From Rhodanobacter sp. DHB23 (lineage in GTDB: Bacteria; Pseudomonadota; Gammaproteobacteria; Xanthomonadales; Rhodanobacteraceae): DNA of 64,000 nucleotides. A model generated the notes under the pieces. That model was not told the origin of the DNA, did no database searches, and was given only the letters and a program-made list of their open reading frames with translations. The stretch's first letter is position 1; each line of letters begins with the position of its first letter. Made by a program: the position numbers and the translations under genes. Location: contig NZ_JACYXK010000025.1 of NCBI RefSeq assembly GCF_014842975.1, positions 124,001 to 188,000 of the forward strand, given 5' to 3'. Positions 3,497 through 9,775 of the stretch are shown piece by piece.

Positions 3497-5230
3497 ATGT
3501 CGGCAGTAGTGCAGCCGGCGCGGGACGAGGGAGCGGCGACGGTGGACGAGCGCGAGGCGGCGGTGTGCGCCCTGCTGGTCGCGCGCGGCCGCCTGAAGGA
3601 TGGCGACCTGGTGCGGGCCCGGCGGCTGCACGAGGAGGCCAGCGAAGGCACGCTCACCGCATTGCTGGCGCGGCTGGGCCTGGTCAACGAACGCGAGCTG
3701 GCCGAGGCATGGAGCGAGCTGCTCGCCGTGCCGCTGCTGTCCGCCCGCGATGCGCCCGAGCTGGCGCCGCCGGACCTCGAACTCTCGCTGCGCTTCCTCA
3801 AGCAGCAGCACGTGGTGCCGGTGGCCGACGGCGGGCACGGGCTGGCGCTGGTGGTGGCCGATCCCGCCGACCCGTATCCGCTGCAGGCGGTGACGCTGGC
3901 GGCCGGCCGGCCGGTGGCGCTGCGCATCGGCCTGCGCTCGGAAATCGACGACCTGATCGAGCGCTATTACGGCAGCGGCCGCTCCGCGATGGGCACCATC
4001 GTGGAGAACATCGACGGCGGCGCCGCGGAAGTGGACGACGTGGAACACCTGCGCGACCTCGCCAGCGAGGCGCCGGTGATCCGCCTGGTCAACCTGATCC
4101 TGCAGCGCGCCGTCGAGCAGCGCGCCTCCGACGTGCACATCGAGCCGTTCGAGAACCGGCTCAAGGTGCGCTACCGCATCGACGGCGTGCTGCACGAAGT
4201 GGAGGCGCCGCCGGCCAGTTCGACCGCGGCGGTGATCTCGCGCGTGAAGATCATGGCCAAGCTCAACATCGCCGAGCGCCGCCTGCCGCAGGACGGCCGC
4301 ATCCAGCTGCGCGTGCAGGGCAAGGAGCTGGACCTGCGCGTGTCCACCGTGCCGACCAGCTTCGGCGAGTCGGTGGTGATGCGCATCCTCGACCGCGAGT
4401 CGGTGGTGTTCGACTTCTCCACGCTGGGTTTCACCGACAGCTTCCAGTCGCGCTTCGTCGAGGTGCTGGAACGGCCGCACGGCATCCTGCTGGTCACCGG
4501 CCCCACCGGCTCGGGCAAGACCACCACGCTGTACACCGCGCTGTCGAAGATCAACACGCCGGACGTGAAGATCATCACCGTGGAGGACCCGGTCGAATAC
4601 CAGATCGAGGGCATCAACCAGATCCAGGCCAAGCCGCAGATCGGGCTGGACTTCGCCGCGGCGCTGCGCTCCATCGTGCGCCAGGACCCGGACGTGATCA
4701 TGATCGGCGAGATGCGCGACCTGGAGACCTGCCGCATCGCGATCCAGTCCGCGCTCACCGGCCACCTGGTGCTGTCCACGCTGCACACCAACAGCGCGTC
4801 CGGCGGCATCACCCGGTTGCTCGACATGGGCGTGGAGGACTACCTGCTCGGCTCCACCGTCAACGGCATCCTCGCGCAGCGCCTGGTGCGCCGGCTCGAT
4901 CCGGCGACCGCGGTGCCCTACGAACCGTCGCCGGAGGTGATCCGCCAGTTCGAGCTGGAGAAATACGCGGACGGCAAGCCGATCCGGCTGTGGCGGCCCG
5001 GCTCCAGTGCGGCCAATCCCAGCGGCTACCGTGGTCGCCAGGCGATCATGGAATTCCTGGTGATGAGCGAGCCGCTGCGCCGCCTGGTGATGCAGAAGGC
5101 CGACGCCGGCGAGATCGAGAAGCAGGCGCGGGCCGAAGGCATGCGCACCATGTACGAGGACGGCATCGCCAAGTCCCTCGCCGGCGTCACCACGCTGGAG
5201 GAGGTGCTGCGTGTCACGCAGGAGGGCTGA
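3497..5230 (+). CDS. gspE: Type II secretion ATPase GspE (XpsE)
   Basis: The protein has 577 residues. It is the cytoplasmic ATPase that powers type II secretion. The order is an N1E-like domain (about 1-150), then N2E and RecA-like domains with Walker A GPTGSGKTTTLYTAL (near residue 335), the Asp box ITVEDPVEYQI, Walker B IGEMRDLET and the His box LSTLHTNSAS. The tetracysteine zinc motif usual in GspE between Walker B and the C-terminus is missing: the region after QRLVRRL reads DPATAVPYEPSPEVIRQF and has no Cys. The start ATG 3497 follows a GGGGTG stretch. It begins the operon that runs to gspD; no gspC precedes it, as in the xps system of Xanthomonas. Confidence 0.93.
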   Translation: MSAVVQPARDEGAATVDEREAAVCALLVARGRLKDGDLVRARRLHEEASEGTLTALLARLGLVNERELAEAWSELLAVPLLSARDAPELAPPDLELSLRFLKQQHVVPVADGGHGLALVVADPADPYPLQAVTLAAGRPVALRIGLRSEIDDLIERYYGSGRSAMGTIVENIDGGAAEVDDVEHLRDLASEAPVIRLVNLILQRAVEQRASDVHIEPFENRLKVRYRIDGVLHEVEAPPASSTAAVISRVKIMAKLNIAERRLPQDGRIQLRVQGKELDLRVSTVPTSFGESVVMRILDRESVVFDFSTLGFTDSFQSRFVEVLERPHGILLVTGPTGSGKTTTLYTALSKINTPDVKIITVEDPVEYQIEGINQIQAKPQIGLDFAAALRSIVRQDPDVIMIGEMRDLETCRIAIQSALTGHLVLSTLHTNSASGGITRLLDMGVEDYLLGSTVNGILAQRLVRRLDPATAVPYEPSPEVIRQFELEKYADGKPIRLWRPGSSAANPSGYRGRQAIMEFLVMSEPLRRLVMQKADAGEIEKQARAEGMRTMYEDGIAKSLAGVTTLEEVLRVTQEG

Positions 5231-5314
5231 GATTCGGGATGCGGGATTCGGGATTCGGCAAAGCGCATTCTCGCGAGCCCCTGGCTTTTGCGTATCCCGA
5301 ATCCCGTATCCCGG
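5231..5314. repeat. GGGATTCGGGATTC inverted repeat between gspE and gspF
   Basis: The left arm has two to three GGGATTCG units (GGGATTCGGGATTCGGC). The right arm has the complementary GTATCCCGAATCCCGTATCCCGG. The centre contains GCGCATTCTCGCGAGCC. Two further copies lie at 7143-7239 and 7677-7773 in the same operon. This one is the only copy outside a coding frame. Confidence 0.9.
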
Positions 5315-5362
5315 CTCTCAACAGACGAATGTCTGGTCATCCCGGCTTGCGGAGCAAGCCCC

Positions 5363-6580
5363 ATGAGCCAGTTCAGTTACAAGGCCATCAGCGACACCGG
5401 CGAAATGCTGCAGGGGCAGATGGAAGCGTCCAGCCTCGACGAGGTGGTGGCGCGACTGCAGGACCAGGGCCACACGCCACTGGAGGCGCGGCCCGCCGAC
5501 GCGATGGGCGGCGGCTCCGGTTTCGCGGCGCTGTTCAGGCGCGGTCCGTTCAACGGCGACCAGCTCGCGCAGTTCACCCACCAGCTGGCGACCCTGCTCG
5601 GCGCGGGCCAGCCGCTGGACCGCGCGCTGGGCATCCTGCTCGACCTGCCCGAGGGCGAGCGCGCGCAGAAGCTGATCGAGCGCGTGCGCGACCGCGTGCG
5701 CGGCGGCATGCCGCTGTCGCAGGCGCTGGACGAGGAACACGGCGTGTTCCCCAGGCTCTACATCGCGCTGGTGCGCGCGGGCGAGGCGGGCGGTTCGCTG
5801 GAAGAGACGCTGCGCCGCCTGGCCGATTACCTGGAACGCTCGCAGGCCCTGCGCGGCAGCATCGTCAACTCGCTGATCTACCCGGCCTTCCTGCTGGTTG
5901 GCGTCTTGGGTTCGCTGGTGCTGCTGCTGGCCTACGTGGTGCCGCAGTTCGTGCCGATCTTCGAGGACATGCAGGTGCCGCTGCCGTGGATCACCAAGGC
6001 GGTGCTGGCGCTGGGGCAGACCTTGCAGTCGTGGTGGTGGCTGATCGCGCTGCTGCTGGCCGGCGGCGTGTCATACCTGCGCGTGCGCCTGCGCGATCCG
6101 GCCGCGCGGCTGGCCTGGGATGCGCGCCTGCTGCGCATGCGCGTGGCCGGCCCGCTGCTGCTCAAGGTGCAGACCGCGCGCATCGCGCGCACGCTGGGCA
6201 CGCTGCTGAAGAACGGCGTGCCGCTGCTGGGCGCGCTGGCCATCGCGCGCCAGGTCGCCGCCAACCGCGCGCTGGACGCGGCGCTGGCGCAGGCGCACGA
6301 GCAGGTGAAGGAAGGCTCCGGCCTGGGCTTCGCGCTGGGTCAGTCGAAGCTGTTCCCGCGGCTCGCGCTGCAGATGGTGCAGGTGGGCGAGGAGGCCGGC
6401 GAGCTGGACACCATGCTGCTCAAGGTGGCCGACACCTTCGAGCTGGAAAGCCGTCGTTCCATCGATCGCCTGCTCGCCGCCCTGGTGCCCGCGCTCACCG
6501 TGGTGATGACCGTACTGGTGGGCCTGATCATGGCGGCGATCCTGCTGCCGCTGCTCAGCCTCACCAGCAATATCCAATGA
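5363..6580 (+). CDS. gspF: Type II secretion inner-membrane protein GspF
   Basis: The protein has 405 residues, the usual length. It is the polytopic platform protein of the type II secretion inner-membrane complex. It starts MSQFSYKAISDTGEMLQGQME, the family's canonical N-terminus. Two GspF domains follow: the first with FTHQLATLLGAGQPLDRALGIL (near residue 75), the second with IARTLGTLLKNGVPLLGALAI near residue 277. Membrane segments occur near 175-200, 225-245 and at the C-terminus (LTVVMTVLVGLIMAAILLPLLSL). The start at 5363 has a GGAG eight bases upstream. The E-F gap holds a palindromic repeat, so the coupling usual in these operons is broken here. Confidence 0.93.
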   Translation: MSQFSYKAISDTGEMLQGQMEASSLDEVVARLQDQGHTPLEARPADAMGGGSGFAALFRRGPFNGDQLAQFTHQLATLLGAGQPLDRALGILLDLPEGERAQKLIERVRDRVRGGMPLSQALDEEHGVFPRLYIALVRAGEAGGSLEETLRRLADYLERSQALRGSIVNSLIYPAFLLVGVLGSLVLLLAYVVPQFVPIFEDMQVPLPWITKAVLALGQTLQSWWWLIALLLAGGVSYLRVRLRDPAARLAWDARLLRMRVAGPLLLKVQTARIARTLGTLLKNGVPLLGALAIARQVAANRALDAALAQAHEQVKEGSGLGFALGQSKLFPRLALQMVQVGEEAGELDTMLLKVADTFELESRRSIDRLLAALVPALTVVMTVLVGLIMAAILLPLLSLTSNIQ

Positions 6581-6595
6581 AACGTGGAGAGTGTG

Positions 6596-7141
6596 ATGAC
6601 GTTGATGCAGAGAAAGGAACGGGGAATGGGGAACGGGGAACGTGATGGCGGGTTGCGCCCCGTATCCGCACGCTTCGGCCTGTTGCCCATGAAGAAGGCG
6701 GTCAATGCATCGCCGCGAGTGCTTCCCCGTTCCCCGCGCGTCATGCGTGCCAGCGGCTTCACCCTGCTGGAAATGCTCGCGGTGATCGTGCTGATCGCCA
6801 TCGTCGGAACGATGGTGGGGAGTCAAGTCATCAAGAACCTGGACAAGGGCAAGTACGGCGCGGGCAAGGCGCAGCTCACCACGCTCGGCCAGAAGGTGGA
6901 GAACTACGCGCTGGACAACGGCACGCCGCCGCAGCAACTGGAAGACCTGGTCAGCAAGCCCGCGAATGCGCCGAACTGGCAGGGGCCCTACGCGAAGGAT
7001 TCCGAACTGAAGGATCCGTGGGGCCACGCCTTCGGCTACAAGTATCCCGGCGAACACGGCAATTTCGACCTGATCTTCTACGGCCGCGACGGCAAGCCCG
7101 GCGGCGACGGCTACGACAAGGACGTGGGCAATTGGCAGTGA
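6596..7141 (+). CDS. gspG: Major pseudopilin GspG
   Basis: The mature domain is the major type II pseudopilin. The prepilin peptidase site is RASG|FTLLEMLAVIVLIAIVG, followed by the calcium-loop region near the end (FYGRDGKPGGDGYDKD). Start choice is open. ATG 6596 has a good GGAGA six bases upstream, right after the gspF stop, and gives a 54-residue leader that includes an inverted repeat. ATG 6689 would give a 23-residue leader, and ATG 6743 a 5-residue leader but without a clear ribosome-binding site. The mature part is about 127 residues, normal for GspG. The start at 6596 is preferred by spacing and by comparison with gspH and gspI, not proven. Confidence 0.9.
   Translation: MTLMQRKERGMGNGERDGGLRPVSARFGLLPMKKAVNASPRVLPRSPRVMRASGFTLLEMLAVIVLIAIVGTMVGSQVIKNLDKGKYGAGKAQLTTLGQKVENYALDNGTPPQQLEDLVSKPANAPNWQGPYAKDSELKDPWGHAFGYKYPGEHGNFDLIFYGRDGKPGGDGYDKDVGNWQ
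6616..6740. repeat. GGGGAACG inverted repeat in the gspG leader region
   Basis: Left arm 6616-6642 contains GGAACGGGGAATGGGGAACG. Right arm 6722-6740 contains CTTCCCCGTTCCCCGCGCG. The arms share a 12-base complementary core (GGGGAACGGGGA). It differs in sequence from the GGGATTC copies but has the same design: short tandem units forming a long hairpin. It lies within gspG if translation starts at 6596 or 6584. Confidence 0.75.
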
Positions 7142-7674
7142 AGCCGGGATTCGGGATACGGGATTCGGGATTTGGCAGAGCGCATTGTCGCGAGCTTGCG
7201 GCTTTTGCGAATCCCGTATCCCGAATCCCGAATCCCGGCCGGCGCCATGGCGCCGGCTTCACCCTGCTGGAAATGCTGGTGGTGATCCTGCTGGTCGGCA
7301 TCGCCGCGGCGGCAGTGTCGGTGTCGGTGACGCAGGGCCTGAAGAGCGCGCGCATCAACGCGGCCAGCGGCGAGATCGCCGCCGCGCTGCGCGCCACCCG
7401 CGCGCAGGCCATCGTGCAGGGCAAGCAGCAATACTTCGACGTGGACATCCGCAACGACACCTACAGCGACGCGAAGCGCAAGGACGTGCGCCTGCCCGCG
7501 GGCCTCAAGCTCTCCATCACCAGCGCGCTGGAAGACCGTCCGAACGACTACACCGGGCGCATCCGCTTCTTCCCCGACGGCAGCTCCACCGGCGGCCACA
7601 TCATCCTGACCAGCGGCAGCCGCCAGTGGCGCATCAACGTGTCGTGGCTCACCGGGCAGGTGGCGGTGCGATGA
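7138..7674 (+). CDS. gspH: Minor pseudopilin GspH with repeat-encoded leader
   Basis: The product is a minor pseudopilin of the type II secretion tip. The cleavage site HGAG|FTLLEMLVVILLVG is clear. The only in-frame start codon between the previous gene and the cleavage site is GTG 7138, which overlaps the gspG stop (GTGA). This gives a 40-residue leader, of which residues 2-34 are the translation of a GGGATTC inverted repeat (for example GFGIRDSGFG and SRIPNPG). The mature part has 138 residues with the GspH pattern IAAALRATRAQAIVQGKQQYFDVD. A leader this long and Pro/Arg-rich is unusual, but it is removed by the prepilin peptidase. Confidence 0.88.
   Translation: MKPGFGIRDSGFGRAHCRELAAFANPVSRIPNPGRRHGAGFTLLEMLVVILLVGIAAAAVSVSVTQGLKSARINAASGEIAAALRATRAQAIVQGKQQYFDVDIRNDTYSDAKRKDVRLPAGLKLSITSALEDRPNDYTGRIRFFPDGSSTGGHIILTSGSRQWRINVSWLTGQVAVR
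7143..7239. repeat. GGGATTCGGGATTC inverted repeat inside gspH
   Basis: The left arm starts GCCGGGATTCGGGATACGGG. The right arm ends CCCGAATCCCGAATCCCGGC. The centre GCGCATTGTCGCGAGCTTGC is shared with the 5231 and 7677 copies. The whole copy is in frame and encodes the GspH leader. Confidence 0.92.
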
Positions 7675-8168
7675 GGGCCGGGATTCGGGATTCGGGATTC
7701 GGGATTCGGCAGAGCGCGCCGCCGCGAGCTTGCGGCTCTTGCGAATCCCGTATCCCGAATCCCGAATCCCGGCAAAAAGGTTTCTCCCTGCTGGAAGTCA
7801 TCGCCGCGATGCTGCTGCTGGCGATCGCCTTCGCGGCCCTGATGCAGGTGGCGGGCGGCGCGATCCGGCTTTCGCGCAACGCGGCGGCGCACGACGAGGC
7901 GGCGCTGCATGCGCGCAGCCTGCTGGACAGCGCCTTCATCACCGAGCCGCTGGCGCCGGGCAGCAGCAACGGTCGTTTCGACGACGGCTACCGCTGGACG
8001 CTGGACGTGACGCCATGGCAGGCGCCCGGCGCGTCGCCCGGCGGCCCCCTGCAGTTGTACCGGCTGGACCTGGCGGTGCAATGGGGCAGCACCACGCATC
8101 CGCAGGTCGCGCACTTCGCCACGCTGCGCCTCGGCCGGCCGCAGGCGCCGCCGGGCGGTGCGCCATGA
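7671..8168 (+). CDS. gspI: Minor pseudopilin GspI with repeat-encoded leader
   Basis: The product is a minor pseudopilin. ATG 7671 overlaps the gspH stop (ATGA) and is the only in-frame start before the cleavage site RQKG|FSLLEVIAAMLLLAI, giving a 37-residue leader. Residues 3-34 are encoded by a GGGATTC inverted repeat. The mature part is 128 residues with the usual GspI body (ALHARSLLDSAF, DGYRWTLDVTPW, LYRLDLAVQW). The leader contains two Cys residues, which is odd for a prepilin leader. The next gene again overlaps by ATGA. Confidence 0.9.
   Translation: MRAGIRDSGFGIRQSAPPRACGSCESRIPNPESRQKGFSLLEVIAAMLLLAIAFAALMQVAGGAIRLSRNAAAHDEAALHARSLLDSAFITEPLAPGSSNGRFDDGYRWTLDVTPWQAPGASPGGPLQLYRLDLAVQWGSTTHPQVAHFATLRLGRPQAPPGGAP
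7677..7773. repeat. GGGATTCGGGATTC inverted repeat inside gspI
   Basis: The left arm GCCGGGATTCGGGATTCGGG holds four GGGATTCG units. The right arm reads GTATCCCGAATCCCGAATCC with CGGC after it. The arms pair almost perfectly. It is in frame, directly after the start codon, in the same position as the copy in gspH. Confidence 0.93.
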
Positions 8169-8833
8169 GGCGGCAGGACGGTTTCACCCTGCTGGAGGTG
8201 CTGGGCGCGCTGGCCCTGCTGGCCCTGCTGCTGGTGGCGGTGTACGGCGGCGTGCGCAGCGCGATCCACGCCGTGCATTCGGGCGGCGCGGCGATCAACC
8301 GCATCGACGAGATCGCCTCGGCGCAGCGTTTCCTGCGCAGCGAACTGTCGCAGGCATTGGCGCAGCCCATCGAGCACAACGACCATGGCCAGCCGGTCTA
8401 CTTCAGCGGCAGCGAACACGAGATGCGCTACGTCGCGCCGCTGCCCGGCTACCTCGGCAAGCTGGGGCCGCAGCTGCAGGTCCTGAAACTGGTGGATGGC
8501 GACCAGGGCGGGCAGCGGCTGGAACTGCAGCTGTCGCTGCTGCCGCCGGACGGCCAGCCGCCGAAGCCGCTGGGCGATCCGCAGGTGCTGCTGGACCACA
8601 TCGTGAAGGGCGGCTTCGACTATCGCGGCCGCGACGCGCAGAACCAGCCGTTGCCGTGGAGCAGCGACTGGGCCGACGGCACGCGCATGCCGCAGCTGGT
8701 ACGCATCCGCCTGCAGGCGCAGGGCGGTTACGACTGGCCCGAGTTGAGCGTGCCGCTGCGCGTCGATGCCGCCGCGGCCGGCGGGCACGTCGGCCTGTTG
8801 CCGGGCAGCATTCCCTACGGTGGCGCGCGATGA
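8165..8833 (+). CDS. gspJ: Minor pseudopilin GspJ
   Basis: The protein has 222 residues. It starts MRRQDG|FTLLEVLGALALLALLLVAVYGG, a normal short leader with a prepilin peptidase site and a hydrophobic helix. The body has the GspJ pattern IDEIASAQRFLRSELSQAL and PLPWSSDWADGTRMPQLVRI. With GspI and GspK it should form the pseudopilus tip. ATG 8165 overlaps the gspI stop, and its own stop overlaps gspK. Unlike gspG, H and I, it has no repeat in its leader, so it serves as an internal comparison. Confidence 0.92.
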   Translation: MRRQDGFTLLEVLGALALLALLLVAVYGGVRSAIHAVHSGGAAINRIDEIASAQRFLRSELSQALAQPIEHNDHGQPVYFSGSEHEMRYVAPLPGYLGKLGPQLQVLKLVDGDQGGQRLELQLSLLPPDGQPPKPLGDPQVLLDHIVKGGFDYRGRDAQNQPLPWSSDWADGTRMPQLVRIRLQAQGGYDWPELSVPLRVDAAAAGGHVGLLPGSIPYGGAR

Positions 8834-9690
8834 AGCGGCCTGCCGGCCAACGCGGGGTGGCCCTGTTGCTGGTGCTGTGGGCCTGCACCCTGCTGGCGAT
8901 CCTGCTCGGCGGTTACGCCATGCTCGCGCGCACCGCGGCGTTGCAGACGCGCTACCAGTTCGCGCAGGCGCGCGCGCACTACGCCGCCGAGGCGGGCGTG
9001 ATGCGCGCGCTGCTCGCCCTGCAGGACCCCGACCCCAGGCGGCGCTGGCTGGCCGACGGCCGCAGCTATCCGTTTCCGTTCGATGGCGCCACGGTGCAGG
9101 TGTCGGTGATCGACGAAGGCGGCAAGGTCGATCTCAATGCCGCCTCGCCCGAGGTGCTGCAGGCGCTGTTCGGCGCCGTGGGACTGGATGCGGTGGCCGC
9201 CGGCAAGCTTGCCGCCAACGTGGTGGAGTGGCGCAGCTTCGTCACCGATGCGGGGCAGGCGGACGCCGCGAACGCGGCCTACGCCGCCGCGGGGCGCGAC
9301 TATGGCCCGCGCCACGGCCCGTTCGCCACCCTGCAGGAACTGCAGCTGGTGCTGGGCATGACGCCCGCGCTGTACCAGCAACTGGAACCGCTCGTCACGA
9401 TCTGGTCCGGTCGCGCCATCCCCGACCCGAACACCGCGCCGCCACTGGTGCTGGCCGCGATTCCCGGGCTGCTCCCGCAGCAACTGCAGGCCCTGCTGGC
9501 CGCACGGCAGCAAAACGGCGGTGCCGGCACGTCGCCCATCGGCGGCGGGATCACGCATAGTATCCGTTCGCAGGCCGAGCTGGCCGACGGCACGCGCGCG
9601 GTGATCCGCGCCACGATCCGTCTGCAGCCGGGCTGGATGGGGTCGCAGCCGTACACCGTGCTGCGCTGGCAGGAGGGCGACGGGGAATGA
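8830..9690 (+). CDS. gspK: Minor pseudopilin GspK
   Basis: The protein has 286 residues and is the largest minor pseudopilin. It starts MKRPAGQRGVALLLVLWACTLLAILLG: the site is QRG|VALLLVLW, where GspK typically lacks the Glu at position 5 of the mature chain, as here. Further features are AEAGVMRALLAL and VIDEGGKVDLNAASPEVL, the family's alpha-domain start, then FATLQELQLVLGMTPALYQQL and DPNTAPPLVLAAIPGL. ATG 8830 overlaps the gspJ stop. The next gene is separated by an 85-base gap with a strong hairpin, the first break in the overlap chain after gspG. Confidence 0.92.
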   Translation: MKRPAGQRGVALLLVLWACTLLAILLGGYAMLARTAALQTRYQFAQARAHYAAEAGVMRALLALQDPDPRRRWLADGRSYPFPFDGATVQVSVIDEGGKVDLNAASPEVLQALFGAVGLDAVAAGKLAANVVEWRSFVTDAGQADAANAAYAAAGRDYGPRHGPFATLQELQLVLGMTPALYQQLEPLVTIWSGRAIPDPNTAPPLVLAAIPGLLPQQLQALLAARQQNGGAGTSPIGGGITHSIRSQAELADGTRAVIRATIRLQPGWMGSQPYTVLRWQEGDGE

Positions 9691-9717
9691 GTGCTGCAAC
9701 GACATCGCTGCGGTCAT

Positions 9718-9774
9718 GGGAACCCTCTCATGGCCTCCCGGCACGGAGGGTCCGGAGGCCATGAGAAGGTTCCC
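9718..9774. repeat. 21-bp inverted repeat between gspK and gspL
   Basis: Arms 9718-9738 (GGGAACCCTCTCATGGCCTC plus C) and 9754-9774 pair with one mismatch around a 15-base loop. The right arm ends one base before the likely gspL start at 9776. The hairpin could hide the gspL start region or be another inserted repeat. It is unlike the GGGATTC and CCCTCTCCC families in sequence. Confidence 0.85.
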
Positions 9775-9775
9775 C

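Follow-up and report, generated by a model that had tools for sequence, protein, structure and literature searches.

Dispersed palindromic repeats beside stop codons and in frame within the cleavable leaders of pseudopilin genes in a Rhodanobacter type II secretion operon

Why should long palindromic repeats stand in frame between the start codon and the prepilin peptidase site of consecutive pseudopilin genes? The locus that raises this question lies in a 64,000-nucleotide stretch of the Rhodanobacter sp. DHB23 genome (hereafter the window, meaning the whole stretch analysed) and is an xps-type secretion operon with the gene order gspE-F-G-H-I-J-K-L-M-N-D, whose nearest named relative is that of Rhodanobacter sp. 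7MK24 (GspF identity 96%). All pseudopilins of this type II secretion system (T2SS) operon carry the prepilin motif G/FxxxE (the slash marking the cut) and belong to the T2SS pseudopilins. In profile searches mature GspG scored above the cut-off of TIGR01710, and the best matches of GspH and GspI were XpsH and XpsI, both below cut-off. Leaders of prepilins are cytosolic and variable in length, and are cleaved after Gly or Ala (PMC10191384). The features discussed below are collected in Table 1.

Table 1. Genes, leaders and inverted repeats of the gsp operon, in window coordinates
Feature	Position	Strand	Remarks
Heptamer inverted repeat, untranslated, gspE-gspF intergenic	5228..5313	.	directly after gspE stop
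gspF (XpsF-like)	5363..6580	+	NCBIfam GspF TIGR02120, above cut-off
gspG N-terminal region	6596..6757	+	candidate starts ATG 6596, ATG 6605, ATG 6743
Inverted repeat, GGGGAACG/GGGAATG-type (also GGGGAAC-type), gspG leader region	about 6620..6735	.	
gspH (XpsH-like minor pseudopilin)	7138..7674	+	NCBIfam XpsH, E 8.6e-35, under its cut-off
gspH leader	7138..7257	+	40 codons, VKPGFGIRDSGFGRAHCRELAAFANPVSRIPNPGRRHGAG; GTG start overlaps gspG stop; first V read as Met
Heptamer inverted repeat, 97 nt, read as translated within gspH leader	7143..7239	.	sequence and fold
gspI (XpsI-like minor pseudopilin)	7671..8168	+	NCBIfam XpsI, E 7.6e-29, under its cut-off
gspI leader	7671..7781	+	37 codons, MRAGIRDSGFGIRQSAPPRACGSCESRIPNPESRQKG; ATG start overlaps gspH stop
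Heptamer inverted repeat, 97 nt, read as translated within gspI leader	7677..7773	.	sequence and fold
gspJ	8165..8833	+	ordinary 6-residue leader MRRQDG; site empty in this genome
gspK	8830..9690	+	leader MKRPAGQRG

The in-frame repeats inside the gspH and gspI leaders are confirmed as a real feature of this DNA. As an earlier note on the window had claimed, both genes start within the preceding stop codon, the gspH GTG (7138–7140) overlapping the gspG TGA (7139–7141) and the gspI ATG (7671–7673) overlapping the gspH TGA (7672–7674), and the frames run open through an inverted repeat of 97 bases to give leaders of the 40 and 37 residues that had been read there. The two copies are 93% identical, their arms are 39 nt long with a complementarity of 85–92%, and the hairpins begin 1–5 nt past the stop, within the start region. 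Chance inverted repeats were ruled out by the excess of GGGATTC in the window (22 occurrences vs 5.1 expected), by inverted-repeat scores of 24 and 30 for the gspH and gspI copies when the best shuffled sequence reached 9–10, and by predicted RNA folding energies of −67 and −79 kcal/mol, respectively. A known RNA family was also considered and rejected, the only matches being to microRNA hairpins, all sub-threshold and reflecting a generic hairpin. Compared with the empty six-codon leader of the MRRQRG kind found in two relatives (L033, L035), the gspI repeat is an insertion of 93 nt, or 31 codons.

In-frame translation of these two repeats is the reading that agrees with frames and starts, since neither gspH nor gspI offers an in-frame ATG, GTG or TTG between the repeat and the cleavage site. 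The claim that the overlapping codons are the only usable starts holds on this downstream side but is slightly too strong upstream, where TTG 7132 (gspH) and GTG 7644 (gspI) lie in frame inside the preceding genes; these are immaterial, because it is the absence of a start downstream of the repeat that matters. For gspG, said to have the same layout with a different repeat, the different repeat type is indeed present, but whether it is translated is ambiguous from the sequence: the in-frame ATG 6743 follows the repeat and would yield a five-residue leader (MRASG), and translation of the gspG repeat is therefore not required, while ATG 6605 (MQRK...) falls, in the alignment, at the conserved MQ[YH][KR] sequence that opens the leader in the relatives (MQYK). 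The gspJ leader, as previously read, is of normal length and free of repeats in the window, although gspJ leader repeats are present in ten relatives. Between gspE and gspF the heptamer copy fills much of the spacer, and the region 5228–5362 has a predicted fold of −76 kcal/mol. Downstream of gspK, ahead of the probable gspL start, is a different strong hairpin (GGGAACC...GGTTCCC, 9691–9775, −54 kcal/mol), the gspK-gspL spacer measuring 85 nt in the window vs 29 nt in most relatives.

The earlier picture of repeats in leaders was sound as far as it went, but it missed a genome-wide family sitting directly after stop codons. With at most one mismatch the 15-mer CGGGATTCGGGATTC has 155 matches across the genome, and its reversed control has none. 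A survey based on pattern matches and on 36 regions of this genome plus the window, with genes called by a home-made codon-usage finder, found 47 arm-bearing elements, laid out as tandem CGGGATT heptamer arms, G-rich first and C-rich last, about a core such as CAGAGC...GCTTTTG. Of 300 genomes sampled from the order, 23, spread over two families, contain the strict repeat pattern, which all four other genomes sampled from this genus lack; the repeat is a hairpin-forming, dispersed palindrome of the Rhodanobacteraceae and Xanthomonadaceae, the family names being taken from the loci. An edge lies at most 8 nt from a stop codon in 36 of the 47 elements (mode 4 nt, n = 17). Between tandem genes 29 of 32 elements are no more than 6 nt from the upstream stop, against the 14.4 expected from uniform placement within the spacer (P 6e-12), and only 10 of 32 lie that close to the next start. 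TGA, TAA and TAG are all found beside elements, and the stop therefore seems to be no part of the element itself. At gspG/H and gspH/I, where start and stop overlap, the position after the stop is therefore the leader.

Copies also lie in frame inside genes reading as NadE, PurL, PurM and UvrD/Rep helicase (L126, L130, L129 and L136), to which they contribute 12–41 residues; these names, like GuaA, LipB and TrpA below, come from reading the translations and not from a profile search. At three further sites (L119, L112, L139) the 3′ repeat arm appears to provide GuaA-, LipB- and TrpA-like genes with their start codon and N terminus. At four others (L118, L125, L131, L138) the repeat fills the spacer from stop to start, with an ATG about 10 nt past the last arm and mostly no evident Shine-Dalgarno sequence, and here the hairpin may join stop and start. 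Among 30 intergenic copies the distance from the stop to the next start, as placed by the crude gene finder, is 1 mod 3 in 17 (about 10 expected).

For comparison, 80 Rhodanobacteraceae gsp loci were gathered by GspF and set beside the window, the spacing between each upstream stop and the prepilin motif was taken with no frame assumed, and a leader was counted as repeat-bearing when it held a strong inverted repeat (score at least 12). Repeats counted in this way occur in 14 gspG, 28 gspH, 16 gspI and 10 gspJ leaders, gspH being the most often occupied (28/70). Empty gspI and gspJ leaders often have six codons (11 nt past the stop), and occupied ones are longer by roughly 70–220 nt. All 26 repeat-bearing gspI and gspJ leaders are in frame of the overlapping start, and stop-to-motif distances are 2 mod 3, the frame of the ATGA overlap, for all counted gspJ genes and for every gspI save that of L098, an exception that is not an insert. 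The earlier note had named initiation after the repeats, or a frameshift across them, as evidence that they are not translated; as described, no start follows the gspH and gspI repeats, and of the 68 repeat-bearing leaders among the compared loci 67 can be read through the repeat without meeting a stop codon. About 73–82% of frames through any repeat copy are open, so that openness alone is weak evidence, and it is the matching frame and the control junctions that carry the argument.

These counts bear on the reading that the repeats are untranslated, intergenic sequence, with GspH and GspI initiating past them at a non-canonical codon. Elsewhere the same repeats do separate a stop from a start that follows them by about 10 nt, and the gspG ATG 6743 does follow its repeat; yet an in-frame ATG, GTG or TTG after the repeat, lacking in gspH and gspI of the window, is found in only five of the 68 leaders and in none of the other 63, and every gspI and gspJ insert keeps the frame of the overlapping start, which makes this reading highly improbable.

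Control junctions are provided by the same operon. At gspL>M and gspM>N the genes mostly meet in 4-nt ATGA overlaps like those of gspH>I and gspI>J, and the downstream product lacks a cleavable leader. Inserts measuring 60 nt or more occur at 22 of 76 H>I and 13 of 75 I>J junctions, vs 0 of 72 at L>M and 0 of 40 at M>N, or 35/151 vs 0/112 when pooled (Fisher P = 7e-10, a significance that is overstated because the loci are related by descent and the pooled test ignores relatedness). The proposal that cleavable leaders are permissive sites agrees well with this distribution, the frame being kept in all gspI and gspJ inserts and no insert standing before gspM or gspN. Cleavage is not sufficient, as gspK also has a prepilin leader and its junction carries an insert in 1 of 75 loci, so that something beyond cleavage limits this gene. 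None of nine other prepilin genes read in this genome, two more being unread, contains a repeat.

It may be asked here whether the element simply picks stops and overlaps through its own insertion chemistry, the leader being a by-product and its cleavability irrelevant. Such chemistry would account for the tight spacing of 0–6 nt to stops genome-wide, but not for the lack of inserts at all 112 gspL>M and gspM>N junctions despite their mostly equal ATGA overlaps. Moreover, in 13 of 14 cases the gspG repeat lies 25–47 nt past the gspF stop, within the leader and not beside the stop, and the leader therefore matters beyond the stop. We consider this explanation unlikely.

The history of the sites was followed on a tree of GspF and GspG from 79 loci, on which a minimum of 11 changes of repeat state is needed for G, 20 for H, 12 for I and 6 for J. 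These values are close to the means obtained with shuffled labels (13.0, 22.1, 14.6 and 9.5, respectively), so that at this depth the presence of a repeat hardly follows descent; indeed, the leaders of the window's sister, the 7MK24 locus (L031), are empty. The independent landings suggested earlier are thus borne out by the changes at gspH and gspI, and the comparison of related genomes that had been called for found repeats absent, present or of a different unit at the same leaders. Units vary by genome and sometimes between neighbouring leaders (GGGATTC, GGGAATG, GGGAACG, GGGACTC), as expected for separate arrivals. The gspH leaders of L041, L105, L046 and L042 appear to hold repeat-like inserts that have no heptamer arms, and more than one repeat family therefore uses the leader sites. 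Insertion is recurrent, and its placement tracks stops genome-wide and discarded leaders within the gsp operon. In a Rhodanobacter denitrificans bin (L038, 7986–8845) an 860-bp run of several palindromic repeats separates gspI from the gspJ prepilin motif.

This pattern weighs on the idea that the hairpins are retained to tune expression, whether by shielding the upstream mRNA, by stalling or gating ribosomes at the overlap, or by setting the ratio of major to minor pseudopilins. The hairpins are very stable and begin 1–5 nt after the stop, within the start region, gspH has the highest occupancy and stands right behind the gene of the major pseudopilin, gspG, and a genome with a repeat in one of G, H, I and J tends to have repeats in others of the four. 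Against this, such co-occurrence would follow just as well from genome-wide repeat activity, the same repeat family follows the stops of many unrelated genes, the nearest relative is wholly without leader repeats, and changes of state are distributed nearly randomly over the tree. With the sister locus empty and presence scattered almost randomly, the suggestion that the hairpins set subunit ratios as a conserved function is not upheld, and expression tuning at large is quite unlikely.

We hold it probable, instead, that mobile palindromes settle beside stops and, where operons are tightly coupled, persist only if the peptide they encode is discarded. The repeat would come to rest directly after a stop codon, and if the following gene has its start within that stop (GTGA or ATGA), the copy would fall in the following gene and have to be translated. 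At overlaps the repeat persists only in frame, and in the gsp operon almost only before the pseudopilins G, H, I and J. In these, the prepilin peptidase would cut the cytosolic leader after the Gly preceding FTLLE or FSLLE, so that the repeat would be tolerated, mature GspH and GspI would be unchanged and the insertion would be near neutral. Ribosomes ending the upstream gene may melt the hairpin base and restart at the overlapping codon, keeping translational coupling, and the heptamer arms, stop-free in every frame, may ease in-frame survival. With the leader discarded and the frame survivable, the leader would thus offer a selfish or near-neutral repeat a safe place to settle.

A more tentative thought, to which we give only a small chance, is that a hairpin 2–5 nt after an ATGA overlap acts as a coupling lock, such that only just-terminated ribosomes initiate there and free 30S subunits cannot. 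A mobile repeat would then make loosely coupled neighbours strictly coupled, with prepilin leaders as protein-neutral insertion places. Liang, Rudd and Deutscher reportedly found in 2015 that ribosomes stall at E. coli REPs located no more than about 15 nt from a stop. The literature searched contained nothing direct on REP/stop-codon stalling or on Rhodanobacter palindromes.

Among known systems, the closest in kind are the Rickettsia palindromic elements, and the closest in placement the REP elements. REPs of Pseudomonas, Stenotrophomonas and Xanthomonas lie mostly within 20 bp of the 3′ ends of upstream ORFs, and some lie inside ORFs, including those of UvrD/REP helicases (PMC3733652). Like them, the present repeats are dispersed palindromes near gene 3′ ends, some inside genes; unlike them, they are without the GTAG/CGTC tag, end in (G)AGCCGGG...CCCGGCTC, span about 65–150 bp rather than 20–40 bp and have tandem heptamer arms. 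No heptamer occurs within about 1.5 kb of the genome's sole full-length Y1_Tnp gene (L147), and a canonical RAYT-mobilised REP was rejected on the lack of the tag and of repeats flanking the Y1 transposase, though an enzyme acting in trans may still be involved. MITEs are defined by terminal inverted repeats and a target-site duplication; the present elements do have inverted arms, and no such duplication was seen by eye at the empty gspI sites of L033–L035. Enterobacterial repeat units (ERIC/RU) differ in offering a single predicted case that gives the signal itself, as opposed to the recurrent lengthening of prepilin leaders seen here.

Rickettsia palindromic elements, roughly 100–150 bp long, are in-frame insertions in unrelated protein genes (PMC10969869, PMC3733652), and R. 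conorii proteins carrying an N-terminal RPE-1 have been reported to be expressed in vivo (PMC3733652). The present palindromes resemble them in standing in frame in gspH, gspI and NadE-, PurL-, PurM- and UvrD-like genes, and depart from them in their heptamer-array arms, in that most copies adjoin stops, and in their repeated convergence on a single class of dispensable peptide, the prepilin leader. No prior report of repeats translated as prepilin leaders was found in the literature searched, in which few subscription journals were covered. Variable and in some cases very long leaders are known from type IVb and Streptococcus sanguinis pilins (PMC10191384); unlike these, the leaders described here owe their extra length to a mobile palindromic repeat that one sister strain has and another lacks. 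For annotation this means that gspG-J starts in these bacteria should not be shifted past the repeat, and more broadly protease-removed peptides are suggested as refuges for mobile repeats in compact genomes. The old question, raised by in-frame palindromes generally, of whether they are tolerated or useful thereby acquires a natural experiment that brings its own controls: a single operon, with similar overlaps that do and do not precede a discarded N-terminal peptide, sampled across 81 genomes.
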